DNA from: an uncultured Paracoccaceae bacterium
Lineage (GTDB): Bacteria > Pseudomonadota > Alphaproteobacteria > Rhodobacterales > Rhodobacteraceae
Direction: 5' to 3'
Assembly (NCBI GenBank): GCA_947493255.1
Contig: CANLQK010000004.1
Location: 248,001 to 312,000 of the forward strand
Length of the DNA: 64,000 nucleotides
The notes under the pieces are model-generated. The model was not told where the DNA came from. It was given only the letters and a program-made list of their open reading frames with translations, and made no database searches. Both the position numbers and the translations under genes were made by a program. Of this stretch, positions 1,596-11,543 are shown one piece after another; position 1 is the stretch's first letter, and the number at the start of each line of letters is the position of its first letter.

Positions 1596-3155
1596 TCAAG
1601 CCGGAAGGTGAATGTTAAACCTCGACCTAATCGCGGCATCTAATTCTGGGTTAAACCGCGCAGCGGATCTCGTGGCCAAGATCGCTTCTTTCTTCGCAAT
1701 GGCGGATTGTACCAAGTTGGGTCGATCGTTTTCGGCCCATTCTTTCGGGCTCATCCGGTTGCCCAAGGTGGGATAGACGCAATCGCGTTCCATATGGCTC
1801 AGCGTGCGGTCTGTCCCAAGGTAGTGCCCCGGACCGCCCATACAGACCTCGCGCATCTGGTCGAGCGCCATAGTTTCGTCGTCCACCTCAATCCCGCGAA
1901 CACAGCGTTGGGCCTGACCAATCAAATCATCACCCAAAATCAGGCTTTCATGGCAGAACCCCAGCAAAGACGCATGCATCCCAGCCGCTTCATACACCAT
2001 GTTACACCCCGCCAGTCCGGCCATAACGTTTGAACACATCTGTTCCCAACCGGCCTGCATGTCGGGCATTTTACTGTCTGCAGCGCCACCTGCAGCGCCA
2101 CCTGGTAGGCCATAGAACGCGTGCATCTGGGCGCATCCGGCTGTCAGCAATGCCTGTTCACCTGACCCAACGGTCATTGCGCCTGTCCGCAGGTCCAACC
2201 CAAACGGCCAAGTTCCAAAGATTGCAGGGTGACCGGGGGCCATGGCGTTGACGTAAACAACACCTGCCAAACATTCGGCAACGGCTTGCACGATTGCACC
2301 TGCGGTTGTTGAAGGGGCAGTCGCCCCAGACATGCCAGCAGACAACAACAACACGGGCATTCCGCCCCGAATACAATGTTCCATCGTTTCGCAAGATTCA
2401 GTTGCGAACTTCATGGGCGGAACCACAAAACAGTTCGAGTTGCTGACGAACGGGCGCGCACGAAAGGCATCTTCTCCACCGGCAATCATATACAACATTT
2501 CAAGGCAGTCGGGCACGAACGACGGGTCCGAAAACGATGTCCCAATGTGTTTTGTTGTGCCAGCCGTACAGGCGTAAACCGTGTTCAGGTCCATTTCCAA
2601 ATTATCAAGGATATCGCGTGCCACCATTGGGCGTTGCAAGAAATGGACATTGTCTAATGTATCTGTAATCCGCGCAGCGTCGTGCAGGTCTTGCAGGGTG
2701 CTTTCGCGATAGTCGTTGCCTTCTACATCCACCATGTTCACAGCGGCGCCTGCAGTGCCGTAATGCACGCGAGTCCCGGACAGATCTAAATCATAGCGCG
2801 GGTCACGGGCTGCAAGTTTGAGATCCTTGCAGGCAATCGCCAACATATCTTCGACCAATGAACGGGGAAACCGAATGCGCCCGTCATCTCCCAAGATCGC
2901 ACCGGCGCCAGTCAAAATATCGATGCCCGATTGGGGCGCATCAGCAAGGCCGATGGTTTCCAACGCGGTCAGGGCCGCATCGTGGATTTTCAAAACATCC
3001 GCGTCCGACATAGGTTTATACATCCCGCCAGGCATTCCTGGCCGAATTGGGCGCATGTCGTCGGACAATGGTGTTGCGCGTGCGGCGTGGCGGGCGGCAC
3101 GGCCACCAGAACGGGCAGGGCGTGCGGGACGGGTTGAAGTCGCTTGATCTGTCAT
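1596..3155 (-). CDS. MttB-family corrinoid-dependent methyltransferase (non-pyrrolysine)
   Basis: A 519-residue member of the trimethylamine methyltransferase (MttB) superfamily. Members move a methyl group from a quaternary or tertiary amine to a corrinoid protein. The N-terminal 30 residues are basic and Ala/Arg-rich, followed by the family core with DPRYDLDLSG, YGTAGAAVNMVD, GTSFSDPSF, GLPGGAAGGAADSKMPD and GGPGHYLGTDRTL. No in-frame amber codon occurs, so this is the Pyl-lacking branch, whose known substrates include glycine betaine, proline betaine and carnitine. The substrate here cannot be read from sequence. No corrinoid protein lies next to it, but a RACo-type reactivator is at 27504-29552. 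Confidence 0.88.
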   Translation of the reverse strand: MTDQATSTRPARPARSGGRAARHAARATPLSDDMRPIRPGMPGGMYKPMSDADVLKIHDAALTALETIGLADAPQSGIDILTGAGAILGDDGRIRFPRSLVEDMLAIACKDLKLAARDPRYDLDLSGTRVHYGTAGAAVNMVDVEGNDYRESTLQDLHDAARITDTLDNVHFLQRPMVARDILDNLEMDLNTVYACTAGTTKHIGTSFSDPSFVPDCLEMLYMIAGGEDAFRARPFVSNSNCFVVPPMKFATESCETMEHCIRGGMPVLLLSAGMSGATAPSTTAGAIVQAVAECLAGVVYVNAMAPGHPAIFGTWPFGLDLRTGAMTVGSGEQALLTAGCAQMHAFYGLPGGAAGGAADSKMPDMQAGWEQMCSNVMAGLAGCNMVYEAAGMHASLLGFCHESLILGDDLIGQAQRCVRGIEVDDETMALDQMREVCMGGPGHYLGTDRTLSHMERDCVYPTLGNRMSPKEWAENDRPNLVQSAIAKKEAILATRSAARFNPELDAAIRSRFNIHLPA

Positions 3156-7730: not shown

Positions 7731-8267
7731 ATGACAGATCAATTAAACAAGTTCGTGGCTTTGCTTCGGGGGGTAAACGTCGGCGGGTCCAACAAGGTCC
7801 CCATGGCAGATCTGCGTGCCGTGGCCAAAGGGCTGGGCTGGGATCAGGTCAAAACCTACATCGCATCCGGCAATTTGGTGTTTGCGGCCAACGAAGAACC
7901 CGATGATTTGGCTGGTCGGCTGCGCGGGGCACTTGCGAAAGACCTCATGGTCGATGTGCCAATCTACGTGCTGCCTGCGAATGTCGTGCGCGATATAACA
8001 ACCGCTTGCCCATTCGATGACGCAGGAAACCGCATTCATTTGTTCACCTGCGAAGCACCACCCGTACTGGATGACACCCTGAAAAATGCGCTCATCGCAC
8101 CGGACGAAGTTATCCATATCGAGGGCCGGTTCGTTTGGCTTTATGCCCCATCTGGCGTTGCCCGATCCAAACTGTTTGCGAAAATGGAAAAGGTCCTCGG
8201 CGTCGCCGCAACGGCACGAAACCTCAACACCATGCGCAAACTGTCAGATTTGGTGACCACCCCGTAA
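7731..8267 (+). CDS. DUF1697 domain protein
   Basis: A 178-residue protein with the DUF1697 hallmark N-terminus FVALLRGVNVGGSNKVPMADLR, then VKTYIASGNLVF, and a C-terminal half ending RSKLFAKMEKVLGVAATARNLNTMRKL. The function of the family is unknown. The start at 7731 was chosen because the domain begins there and longer reading frames would run through the divergent MmcQ/YjbR gene. Confidence 0.85.
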   Translation: MTDQLNKFVALLRGVNVGGSNKVPMADLRAVAKGLGWDQVKTYIASGNLVFAANEEPDDLAGRLRGALAKDLMVDVPIYVLPANVVRDITTACPFDDAGNRIHLFTCEAPPVLDDTLKNALIAPDEVIHIEGRFVWLYAPSGVARSKLFAKMEKVLGVAATARNLNTMRKLSDLVTTP

Positions 8268-8312
8268 GGATTGCGCGTTGATTTGTGCCCCAGTCCGCGC
8301 TAGGAAGCTGAT

Positions 8313-8354
8313 ATGAAGAGCATTTGCACCATCTGCATTATTATTACCTGCTGA
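8313..8354 (+). CDS. Putative Ile/Cys/Thr-rich leader peptide MKSICTICIIITC
   Basis: A 13-codon ORF, ATG at 8313 and TGA at 8352-8354, with five Ile, three Cys and two Thr codons among 13. AGGAAG (8302-8307) is a clear ribosome binding site five bases before the ATG. The next genes are cysS (cysteinyl-tRNA synthetase) and cimA (citramalate synthase, first step of isoleucine synthesis), so the peptide is rich in exactly the residues the operon handles. This is the logic of ribosome-mediated attenuation peptides such as those of thr and ilv operons. The ORF is read directly; the regulatory role is inferred. Confidence 0.7.
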   Translation: MKSICTICIIITC

Positions 8355-8361
8355 CATCTGT

Positions 8362-8450
8362 CGCGGGCCGCTCTTTCACGTTTCTTCTGATCCCTGAACT
8401 TGCTAAGCCCGCGGGCGAATTGTTTGCAAATAACCTGTGCACTGGCGCAG
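8362..8450 (+). promoter_or_regulatory. Structured leader between the peptide ORF and cysS
   Basis: CGCGGGC at 8362-8368 is the exact complement of GCCCGCG at 8407-8413. The 5' arm starts eight bases after the leader stop codon, within reach of a ribosome stalled on the last Cys codon (8349-8351). A second hairpin, CTGTGC (8435-8440) with GCGCAG (8445-8450), stands just before the cysS ribosome binding site AAGGCGAG (8457-8464). No T-run follows the long stem, so a classical intrinsic terminator is not evident. Confidence 0.5.
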
Positions 8451-8469
8451 CGTATCAAGGCGAGACAAC

Positions 8470-9918
8470 ATGACGATCAAATTGTACAATACCAAGGTCC
8501 GCAAAAAGGTCGATTTCGAACCGATCGACCCAAATAACGTGCGCATGTACGTTTGCGGGCCCACGGTTTACGACCGCGCCCACCTAGGAAACGCGCGGCC
8601 CGTAATCGTGTTTGACACGTTGTTTCGTTTGCTCCGCCATACCTATGGTGCCGATCACGTCACCTACGTGCGCAATTTCACCGACGTGGACGACAAGATC
8701 AACGCCACAGCCTTGGCGCGCCAACAGGCTGGCGCCGCTGGAACGTTGGAAGACCTGATTAACGAGCGATCCAATGAAACCATCAGTTGGTACCTGGAAG
8801 ACATGGGCGCAGTTGGCGCGATGGAACCCAACGCCGCCCCGCGCGCCACAGACTACATCGCTGAAATGATCGCGATGATCGAAAACCTTATCGAAAAAGA
8901 CCACGCCTATGCTGCAGAAGGCCATGCGTTGTTCCGAGTTCGGTCCTATCAAGACTACGGCGCGTTGTCTGGCCGGTCTGTTGACGACATGATCGCAGGT
9001 GCACGGGTCGAAGTCGCACCATTTAAAGAAGACCCAATGGATTTCGTCCTTTGGAAACCGTCCACAGACGACCAACCCGGCTGGGATAGCCCATGGGGCC
9101 GAGGCCGTCCGGGGTGGCACATTGAATGCTCAGCAATGGCGCTTGATTTGTTGGGCGAAGAATTTGACATCCACGGCGGCGGCAACGATCTGCAATTCCC
9201 GCACCACGAAAACGAAATCGCACAATCCACTTGCTGCGGCCACGGGTTTGCAAACGTCTGGATGCACAACGAGATGCTTCAGGTCGAGGGCAAGAAGATG
9301 TCCAAATCCTTGGGTAACTTCTTCACAGTGCGCGACTTGCTGGACCAAGGCGTCCCCGGCGAAGTCATCCGTCTGGTGTTCCTTCTGACCCATTATCGCA
9401 AGCCAATGGATTGGACCGAGGCAAAACGCGGCGAGGCAGAAAAGATGTTAGCGGACTGGGTGTCGGTGCTTCAAAAGCACGGCTATTCACCCAAGACAAT
9501 CGAAGGCCTCAAAGCGTCAGGTGACTGGGTCGCTGATGCGGAATTCATCGGGGTGCTCAGCAATGATCTGAACACGTCTGGCGCGATTTCCCGAATGCAT
9601 GTTCTTGCAAAGGCAAAGACAGCGGCAGGATTGGTGCCTTTGGCCCATGCGCTAGAAACGCTGGGCTTGGTCACCGACTGGTCTGTCCTCGAAACCGCTG
9701 CAAACCAAGACGATGATATGCCTGACTGGGCCACTAGCGTGATCGACCGCCTGATTGTCGAACGCGGCAATGCGCGCGATGCAAAAGATTGGGGCGAAGC
9801 AGACCGCTTGCGCGATCTTCTGAACGCAGCAGGTGTGCAAGTCACTGATGTTGCCGGAACCGCGACTTGGGTGCCCGGGCCAAACTTTGATCCAAGCGTG
9901 TTGGAGGGATTGAAATGA
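8470..9918 (+). CDS. cysS: Cysteinyl-tRNA synthetase
   Basis: A 482-residue class I aminoacyl-tRNA synthetase that charges tRNA-Cys. Seen are the zinc-ligand cysteine in YVCGPTVYD, the HIGH equivalent HLGN, the [10 protein letters not shown] and [18 protein letters not shown] segments that hold the other zinc ligands, and [10 protein letters not shown] chose ATG 8470 (MTIKLYNT) over the in-frame GTG at 8437 because AAGGCGAG precedes it and family members start there. It overlaps cimA by four bases (ATGA) and is preceded by a leader ORF rich in Cys and Ile codons. Confidence 0.97.
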
Positions 9919-11543
9919 AAGAACGTCTTTTCCTCTATGACACCACTCTAAGGGATGGCCAGCAAACCCAAGGTGTCCAATTCTCAACCGAAGAAAAGCA
10001 CCAAGTCTGCGCGGTGCTTGATGATCTTGGCGTTGATTACATCGAAGGGGGTTGGCCCGGTGCCAACCCAACGGACAGCGAATTTTTCGAAAGCGCCCCG
10101 AAAACCCGTGCCACCATGACCGCCTTTGGCATGACCAAACGGGCAGGGCGTTCGGCTGACAATGATGACGTTTTGGCGGCTGTCATGAACGCGGGAACTC
10201 CGGCGGTTTGTCTTGTAGGGAAGACACATGATTTTCACGTGACCACCGCGCTGGGTATTTCGCTTGATGAGAATATTGAAAACATCGAAGCGTCCATCAA
10301 ACATATCGTCGCAAATGGGCGCGAAGCGTTGTTTGACGCCGAACACTATTTCGATGGTCTGAAATCCAACCATGACTACACCCTGCGTGCTGCCAAAGCC
10401 GCTTACGATGCTGGCGCGCGGTGGGTCGTGTTGTGCGACACCAACGGCGGTGCGCTGCCTCATGACGTGCGGGCAGGTGTTACTGCCCTGATCAAGGCAG
10501 GCGTACCGGGCGATCACATCGGCATCCACACCCACAATGACACCGAAAATGCCGTCGCCAACTCCCTCGTGGCGGTTGCCGCCGGTGCGCGTCAGGTTCA
10601 GGGTACGCTCAACGGGTTGGGCGAACGCTGCGGCAACGCTAACCTGACAACCCTGATCCCAACACTGGCGCTCAAAGAACCCTTTGCCAGCCAGTTTGAA
10701 ACCGGCGTCACCGCTGAGGCCCTTAAAGGTTTGAAAAAAGCATCACGTACCTTGGATGAAATTCTTAACCGCGTGCCACACAAACAGGCGGCATTTGTCG
10801 GTCCATCCGCCTTTGCGCACAAAGCCGGCCTGCACGCCAGCGCCATCGCCAAAGACCCAACAACCTACGAACACATCGAACCATCGCTTGTCGGCAACAG
10901 CCGCATCATTCCCATGTCGAACCAAGCAGGTCAGTCTAACCTGCGCGAACGTTTGTCTGGCATGGGCCTAGAGGTCGCTAAAGGTGACCCCGCACTGCAA
11001 CGCATTCTGGACCGTGTGAAAGAGCGTGAGGCCGCGGGTTATACCTATGACACCGCTCAAGCCTCGTTCGAAGTGCTGGCCCGCGAAGAATTGGGGCTGA
11101 TGCCGGAATTCTTTGAAGTGAAACGTTACCGCGTGTCCATCGAACGGCGCCGCAACAAACGCAACCAAATGGTGTCGTTGTCCGAAGCCGTCGTCGTTGT
11201 GAAGGTCGATGGCGAGAAAAAACTGAGCGTTTCAGAAAGCCTTGGACCGGACGGTTCTGACCAAGGGCCCGTGAATGCCTTAAGCCGCGCGTTGGTCAAG
11301 GACCTTGGCCGTTACGCGGAATATGTCTCCGACATGCGCCTGACCGACTTTAAGGTCCGCATCACCAATGGCGGCACCGAGGCCGTCACACGTGTCATTA
11401 TCGACAGTGAAGACGGGCAGGGAACCGCATGGTCAACCGTCGGGGTCAGCGCCAACATAGTTGATGCGTCCTTCGATGCATTGCTTGATGCTATCCGTTG
11501 GAAGTTGGTCCAAGAAGGTGCCACTGAAAGCCATCGTTCATGA
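9915..11543 (+). CDS. cimA: Citramalate synthase
   Basis: A 542-residue enzyme of the DRE-TIM metallolyase family. It condenses pyruvate and acetyl-CoA to (R)-citramalate, the threonine-independent entry to isoleucine (and 2-oxobutyrate). Evidence: the N-terminal [15 protein letters not shown] with the catalytic Arg-Asp, the metal-binding [35 protein letters not shown], and a C-terminal LeuA dimer/allosteric domain (about residues 390-540). It overlaps cysS and the following gene by four bases each, so translation of all three is probably coupled. Confidence 0.92.

Follow-up and report, generated by a model that had tools for sequence, protein, structure and literature searches.

Can a single short ORF in front of an operon respond to two unrelated amino acids? 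This question is raised by a leader ORF upstream of cysS and cimA in a window of 64,000 nucleotides of DNA from an uncultured Paracoccaceae bacterium (contig CANLQK010000004.1, positions 248,001 to 312,000; all positions below are those of the window, and features lie on its forward strand unless stated otherwise). The ORF (8313-8354) encodes MKSICTICIIITC, and its codons include five Ile, three Cys, and two Thr; the Cys codons are numbers 5, 8, and 13, no two of them adjacent, so that tandem Cys codons are absent. It ends 115 nt before the ATG (8470) of cysS, which encodes cysteinyl-tRNA synthetase (8470-9918; TIGR00435, 439.4 bits against a cut-off of 340), and the reading frame of cysS overlaps by 4 nt that of cimA, which encodes citramalate synthase (9915-11543; TIGR00977, 577.5 bits against a cut-off of 450). 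An IlvA above cut-off is also encoded in the source genome, and CimA is thus perhaps not the sole route to isoleucine. The initial annotation had proposed a two-amino-acid attenuator at this site. Its description of the ORF (position, codon content, distance to cysS, and the cysS-cimA overlap) was confirmed throughout, and the 7-bp complement that it pointed out, between CGCGGGC at 8362-8368 and GCCCGCG at 8407-8413, is exact.

Conservation and start of the leader ORF

To examine the occurrence of the leader, genome contigs were searched for CimA, and from at least 586 loci the best 80 were taken; with the window's own locus added and one incomplete locus (L057) left out, 80 loci with a cysS start were available, and all 80 have a CysS match 5' of cimA on the same strand. 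The record titles of these loci name Rhodobacteraceae or genera that we take to belong to them, except for L031 and L043, which are titled 'Alphaproteobacteria', and L056, titled 'Enemella evansiae', perhaps a mislabel. A leader was defined as a short ATG-initiated ORF with at least four Ile plus Cys within its last 12 residues. By this definition, an equivalent ORF was found in 79 of the 80 cysS loci of this set (own included), and the suggested check, whether relatives that keep cysS-cimA also keep the short ORF, was passed. The leader starts 119-175 nt before cysS, and the distance from leader to cysS ranges from 77 to 130 nt. Such a frequency is not due to chance, since ORFs of the same kind occurred in only one of 79 reverse complements of the same stretch and in 30 of 3950 shuffled sequences.

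A covariance model of the leader region (R1) matched 321 of 395 family genomes; the window element scores 80.4 bits against R1, with its own row included in the model. Across 289 genomes sampled from the class, R1 had ten matches. Five belong to family members, the source genome among them, and the other five (E 3e-4 to 0.01) fall outside the family. The latter were taken as chance matches because no cysS or cimA match could be found in the surrounding 3 kb. By this search, the leader element is not convincingly present outside the family. Two R1 matches each were observed in G097, G151, and G348. The sole locus without an equivalent ORF, L003 from an Octadecabacter MAG, represents a natural loss case, with a seemingly decayed leader in which ATA replaces ATG and a stop codon interrupts the frame; its cimA is linked.

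The sequence upstream of the leader has the layout of a promoter (P1), TTGATT-N17-TAGGAA-N6-ATG, with a putative -35 element at 8278-8283 and a putative -10 element at 8301-8306. A TA at -12 to -14 from the ATG is present in 78 of 79 loci compared with 54 of 790 control ATGs, and the same position was found in 54 of the 55 loci that have a single in-frame ATG. Similarly, a TTG or TGG precedes the -10 TA by 16-18 nt in 76 of 79 loci, compared with 10 of 790 control ATGs, and a pyrimidine (C or T) stands directly before the leader ATG in 77 of 79 loci. Because SD-like sequences are rare before the leader ATG (5/79) and common before cysS (58/79), the AGGAAG located five bases from the ATG, which had been annotated as a ribosome binding site, is probably part of the -10 box instead. 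We infer that the first transcribed base is the A of the leader ATG (8313), six nt after the -10 box, which would make the leader part of a leaderless mRNA.

Isoleucine codons and linked cimA genes

Isoleucine accounts for 30.5% and cysteine for 27.7% of the residues after Met in the 79 leaders; for comparison, these residues make up 4.2% and 0.9% of three proteins of the window operon. At least two Ile and at least two Cys are present in 77 of the 79 leaders, and tandem Cys codons in 71, mostly at codons 10-11 when counted from the chosen ATG. When codons were counted backwards from the stop (n = 79), Cys was found at -5 in 72 leaders, at -4 in 57 (with Ile in 19), and at -1 in 71, and Ile at -3 in 74. 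In 43 further divergent loci, Ile occupies -3 in 39 and Cys occupies -4 in 33, and most of the last codons encode Arg (16) or Gly (13). Among the sensor codons, Ile at -3 is conserved best, and it falls outside the two stems described below. Moreover, the leader of L113, a locus with linked cimA, contains five Ile but not a single Cys. As far as these sequences tell, both codon types are conserved, and Ile is about as frequent as Cys.

The relationship between the Ile codons and cimA was analyzed in a family sample of 199 genomes, 189 of which have CimA. Three genomes with unlinked cimA (G040, G066, and G150) were excluded from the linked set; the cysS of G066 is a divergent copy elsewhere, and about 1.8 kb separates the two genes in G150. 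R1 matched 158 of the 186 cimA-bearing genomes not known as unlinked, their linkage being taken from listed coordinates rather than genome by genome, compared with none of the seven genomes in this sample that are resolved as cimA-less or unlinked (Fisher 3.8e-6, for genomes that are not independent). When contig-edge assemblies were counted as cimA-less, R1 matched 5 of 13 (Fisher 3.6e-4). In a larger set, made up of 394 genomes with a completeness of 98% or more, 16 were without a CimA match at E 1e-80, and a relaxed search covered part of them. An Ile-rich leader was found in none of the 14 resolved genomes (11 genera) without linked cimA. No leader of any kind was found in the cimA-less genomes G010, G042, G134, G701, G371, G361, G264, G275, and G324, nor in the three with unlinked cimA, and two cimA-less genomes of one genus (G096 and G690) retain MDWICCLCRA, a leader with three Cys and one Ile in which positions -5 to -1 read C-L-C-R-A. 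In eight of 11 cimA-less cases (G010, G042, G096, G134, G275, G361, G690, and G701), the gene located next after cysS matches the squalene/phytoene-synthase-like gene that stands after cimA in the window.

Exceptions occur on both sides of this distribution. An Ile/Cys ORF or an R1 match was detected in seven cimA-less assemblies (G093, G105, G139, G140, G161, G174, and G272; in G139 the R1 match alone was seen, not the ORF). In all of them but G093, the contig stops in or soon after cysS, or a cysS could not be detected. G093 carries the ORF MGTAIRICGICITV, which is without an R1 match, and has about 650 nt after cysS without CimA; this genome may be a true counterexample to the linkage rule. 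In addition, the leader is absent in ten cimA-linked operons (L088, L114, L118, L119, L120, L138, L188, L190, L191, and L192) and in L193 (G106), whose linkage to cimA is presumed rather than confirmed. L118 and L119 (G083 and G152) come from small genomes (2.5 and 2.1 Mb) with an AT-rich region before a linked cysS-cimA pair. Overall, the genome comparison indicates that Ile codons accompany linked cimA in resolved cases, and contig-edge cases blur the pattern.

Alternative hairpins and a promoter-like element

Two RNA structures are predicted around the leader stop codon. Hairpin A (8347-8367; -9.8 kcal/mol) encloses the stop and is formed by CCUGC (8347-8351) and GAC (8353-8355) with GUC (8360-8362) and GCGGG (8363-8367). 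Stem B pairs 8362-8368 with 8407-8413. Since A and B share the GCGGG arm, they are mutually exclusive. The 7-bp pairing of the initial annotation is one of two alternatives rather than the sole structure, hairpin A with the stop codon having been overlooked.

Both structures were compared with several controls. Against loop-shuffled sequences, the 59 distinct hairpin A segments gave a mean z of -1.77, with p<=0.1 in 36 of them (0.09 for the window's own) and in 28 of the 43 divergent loci outside the alignment. Cells of hairpin A are paired in 82.2% of cases versus 33.3-51.4% after sliding, and those of stem B in 82.5% versus 22.5-59.0%. The signal of stem B per sequence was moderate in the 43 divergent loci (p<=0.05 in 13, median 0.125). 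A joint test of A and B with a shared 6-bp arm reached p<=0.05 in nine of these loci; it asks too much, given that the overlap of A and B amounts to only about 5 nt. With regard to compensatory changes, pair 67-122 of stem B (n = 73) is C-G in 15 rows, G-C in 10, U-G in one, and unpaired in 47; among the divergent loci, arms are exchanged in stem B, for example, in L111, L117, and L204. All five loci with a TAA stop carry the matching A-U at pair 53-65, among them L077, which is without a folded hairpin A. The covariation score was reached by 7 of 500 shuffles for B and by none of 500 for A, and the count of pairs with two-sided changes by 83 and 131 of 500, respectively. Stem B slid by +2 had a higher covariation (0.107) than stem B itself (0.077), and RNAalifold on alignment A1 yielded four stem B pairs only and did not recover hairpin A. 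The alignments thus point to two exclusive hairpins with some compensatory changes. The changes anticipated for the 7-bp pairing are in part present, as the C-G and G-C pairs at 67-122 illustrate, but the shuffle and slide controls of the stems are mixed. In L033, L045, L056, L059, and L195, an extra GC-rich hairpin seems to have been inserted, separating the leader stop from the GCGGG arm.

Folding of truncated RNAs was used to simulate a stalled ribosome. For the window, the probability of hairpin A, P(A), was 1.0 with a stall at -6 and earlier, 0.34 at -5, and <=0.02 at -4 to -1; across 78 loci, the mean P(A) was <=0.03 at -4 to -1 and at least 0.85 at -6 or earlier. A stall at -4 to -1 abolishes A in these simulations, and the conserved Cys and Ile codons are thus placed where stalling would matter. 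The decisive codons -5 to -1 of the window (8337-8351) are Ile, Ile, Ile, Thr, and Cys. The initial annotation had the stalled ribosome cover 8362-8368; with a 12-nt downstream footprint, it would be expected to cover 8347-8351 instead, the segment that otherwise pairs with the GC arm. The equilibrium fold of the full-length window leader RNA gave B in every state, even ribosome-free, and no switch was found. Because equilibrium prefers B, hairpin A must act kinetically, during transcription.

A P2-like element, GTTTC-N15-TTGCTAAG (8380-8407), lies in the loop of stem B, and the consensus between the two arms reads GTTTY, 15 nt, and TTGCTAAG. The 16 columns from GTTT to TTGCTA are gap-free, except for a one-base insertion directly after GTTT in two of 73 rows, and the alignment columns 5' of GTTT do contain gaps. 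A P2 matrix matched at p<0.05 in 6 of 12 cysS genes that have neither a leader nor linked cimA, in 6 of 12 that have cimA but no leader (L193 counted here), in both of those with the Cys-rich leader, and in 22 of 36 with other leaders. These matches are partly weak, scores above 10 being found in L083, L087, and L108, in L138, L188, L191, L193, and L003, and in L082 and L180. Relatives whose loci lack the leader (L083, L087, L108, L188, L191, and L193) retain GTTTC-N15-TTGCTAAG before cysS. GCTA is an alphaproteobacterial -10 core. The -35 half of P2 in alignment A1 is TTT or TTC, never TTG, and with such an unusual -35 half the promoter identity of P2 remains a proposal; the element may belong to an unusual promoter class and is possibly a second promoter of cysS. 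The initial annotation regarded a transcription start downstream of 8354 as contrary to attenuation. The P2-like element would indeed start transcripts near 8416-8418, but these would add to the transcripts of the upstream promoter.

Attenuation models and known leaders

Hairpin A is followed by a pyrimidine-rich tract (8370-8389). A T-rich segment begins 5 nt after the hairpin A arm, where T occupies the fifth base in 92% of cases. The T runs after hairpin A are mostly of 3-4 nt, the longest being <=4 in 77 of 78 loci and five in one, and a canonical U-run after hairpin A was not found. With T runs this short, help from Rho or another mode is possible. A pattern scan for an intrinsic terminator gave two matches versus 1.1 expected by chance, and this candidate was rejected; an Rfam scan of 8250-8500 returned no match even at E up to 1.

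The element is probably a ribosome-mediated attenuator of cysS-cimA with charged tRNA-Cys and charged tRNA-Ile as its inputs. The P1 transcript would begin on the A of the leader ATG and be translated as a leaderless mRNA. When Cys and Ile are plentiful, the ribosome would complete the leader and depart at the stop, and hairpin A would form first during transcription; this would be the OFF state, in which transcription probably ends early, within the pyrimidine-rich tract or beyond it. When either Cys or Ile is short, the ribosome would wait at codons -5 to -1 and cover the 5' arm of A, the freed GCGGGC would pair with the downstream GCCCGC to form stem B, and RNA polymerase would continue into cysS-cimA. 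The P2-like element in the loop of B may provide basal cysS expression independent of the attenuator. The complete picture is only slightly more likely than not: a leaderless two-input attenuator whose codons track the operon genes (Cys with cysS and Ile with cimA), whose Ile codons are lost with cimA, whose hairpins pivot on the stop codon, and in which a basal cysS promoter is nested. The two-amino-acid attenuator of the initial annotation thus finds good support, all of it comparative, in the codons, the cimA link, and the hairpins, but its ribosome binding site and single pairing were wrong or incomplete, and the element had already been published.

A termination step that depends on Rho is the alternative that survives best, although it is rather unlikely as an account of its own. 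In this case, the pyrimidine-rich RNA 3' of A would be the entry site of Rho after release of the ribosome, and a stall together with stem B would block entry. The presence of such a tract without a U-run is consistent with this scheme, and Rho has been proposed for terminator-less actinobacterial Cys leaders (PMC1262725, in excerpt). However, the conservation of hairpin A suggests that it has a role of its own. Moreover, Rho would alter only the termination step of the two-input attenuator, and the odds of both overlap.

A related element has been described as uORFC-8-2 (PMC8632094, RNA Biol 2021). According to excerpts of that paper, it has 145 examples, found only before cysS in Rhodobacterales, and consists of a uORF with tandem Cys codons and two stems, for which ribosome-mediated attenuation was proposed. 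The element of the window, which is likewise located upstream of cysS in Rhodobacterales and has Cys codons and two stems, is almost certainly the same. Thus, the earlier statement that no such leader had been described does not hold, although the published reading, as excerpted, is a Cys reading only. Some differences were found. The paper names Cys alone, and isoleucine, cimA, citramalate, and leaderless are absent from its main text. Its tandem Cys codons are usually numbers 14-15, in contrast to mostly 10-11 here, and an upstream in-frame ATG within the -10 box, as in L035, could explain that numbering. The tandem itself, which 71 of the 79 leaders contain, is missing from the window leader. 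As for the remaining traits, the first of the two stems of uORFC-8-2 carries the Cys codons; in the window, the last Cys codon and the stop fall within hairpin A, and stem B comes second. uORFC-8-2 has a run of U at its 3' end; here, a pyrimidine-rich tract was found, with a longest T run <=4 in 77 of 78 loci. No further open-access paper was found under the name uORFC-8-2, and no Ile+Cys leader for cysS-cimA is described among the open-access matches listed. Compared with the published description, the Ile codons, the tie to cimA, the leaderless start, the exclusive hairpin pair, and the P2-like element appear to be new.

If the published reading were complete, Cys codons would be read and Ile would be filler. 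We consider such a cysteine-only attenuator unlikely. That reading emphasizes tandem Cys codons (PMC8632094, in excerpt), which most leaders (71/79) possess; cysS is the first gene of the operon, and G093 may retain Ile codons without cimA. However, the Ile at -3 (74/79 and 39/43) shows no less conservation than the Cys positions, and neither stem includes it. The window leader is without tandem Cys and has Ile at three of the five decisive positions, the leader of L113 combines linked cimA with five Ile and no Cys, and a Cys-rich, Ile-poor leader was found where cimA has been lost.

Leaders that sense more than one amino acid are familiar from E. coli, whose thr (Thr and Ile) and ilvGMEDA leaders contain several regulatory amino acids that match the pathway, and the Sinorhizobium trpL leader contains Trp codons. 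The two-input attenuator resembles the E. coli leaders in that multiple amino acids would be read by one leader. Those leaders serve a single pathway, whereas Cys (charging) and Ile (synthesis) are unrelated here and match two different genes.

Control at the level of translation is less likely still. Stalling or reinitiation would then change the translation of cysS rather than transcription, as in the mycobacterial leaderless sORFs with poly-Cys codons, which are described, in the excerpts available, as attenuators that control Cys genes (Canestrari et al. 2020, via PMC9031893, PMC9094748, and PMC13236596). These sORFs provide a similar leaderless, Cys-rich layout (PMC9031893, in excerpt), and they share with the present element Cys codons, control of Cys-related genes, and a start that is probably leaderless here as well. 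On the other hand, the excerpts describe them as translational and responsive to cysteine only, with no second amino acid mentioned. The distance between leader and cysS varies from 77 to 130 nt, and no conserved pairing with the cysS SD could be seen by eye, both of which argue against this alternative.

It is very improbable that the locus involves no attenuation and that the peptide or leader RNA acts in trans (cf. rnTrpL/peTrpL of Sinorhizobium) or is a relic of a leaderless promoter: an alphaproteobacterial leaderless 14-aa leader with trans roles is known (PMC7298713, in excerpt), but the peptides here vary at their N-termini while the codon type near the stop and the two exclusive hairpins are conserved, and trans roles are compatible with attenuation. 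According to the same excerpts, the RNA of the Sinorhizobium trpL begins with the ATG, and transcription attenuation is described alongside trans-acting products. It resembles the present, probably leaderless, element as a leader ORF in an alphaproteobacterium, and it differs in controlling the trpE(G) operon rather than cysS-cimA.

If the two-input reading is true, one short ORF would read two unrelated amino acids and tie the charging of one to the synthesis of the other. The published view of uORFC-8-2, limited to cysteine, would be broadened, and a reason for the lasting association of cysS with cimA would suggest itself. The family would also contain natural controls, namely genomes that lack cimA, genomes that lack the leader, and genomes that keep just a Cys-rich one, and evolution would have already supplied codon swaps for testing two-input attenuation.

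Elsewhere in the window, an Rfam match to PYLIS_3 (pyrrolysine insertion sequence) was observed at 1985-2084 on the reverse strand, with a score barely above the cut-off (39.1 versus 38 bits). It is located inside an ORF on the same strand (1596-3155) that encodes an MTTB-family protein (PF06253, 363 bits) and is open, without an in-frame stop, and the match is likely a resemblance of coding sequence rather than a Pyl site.
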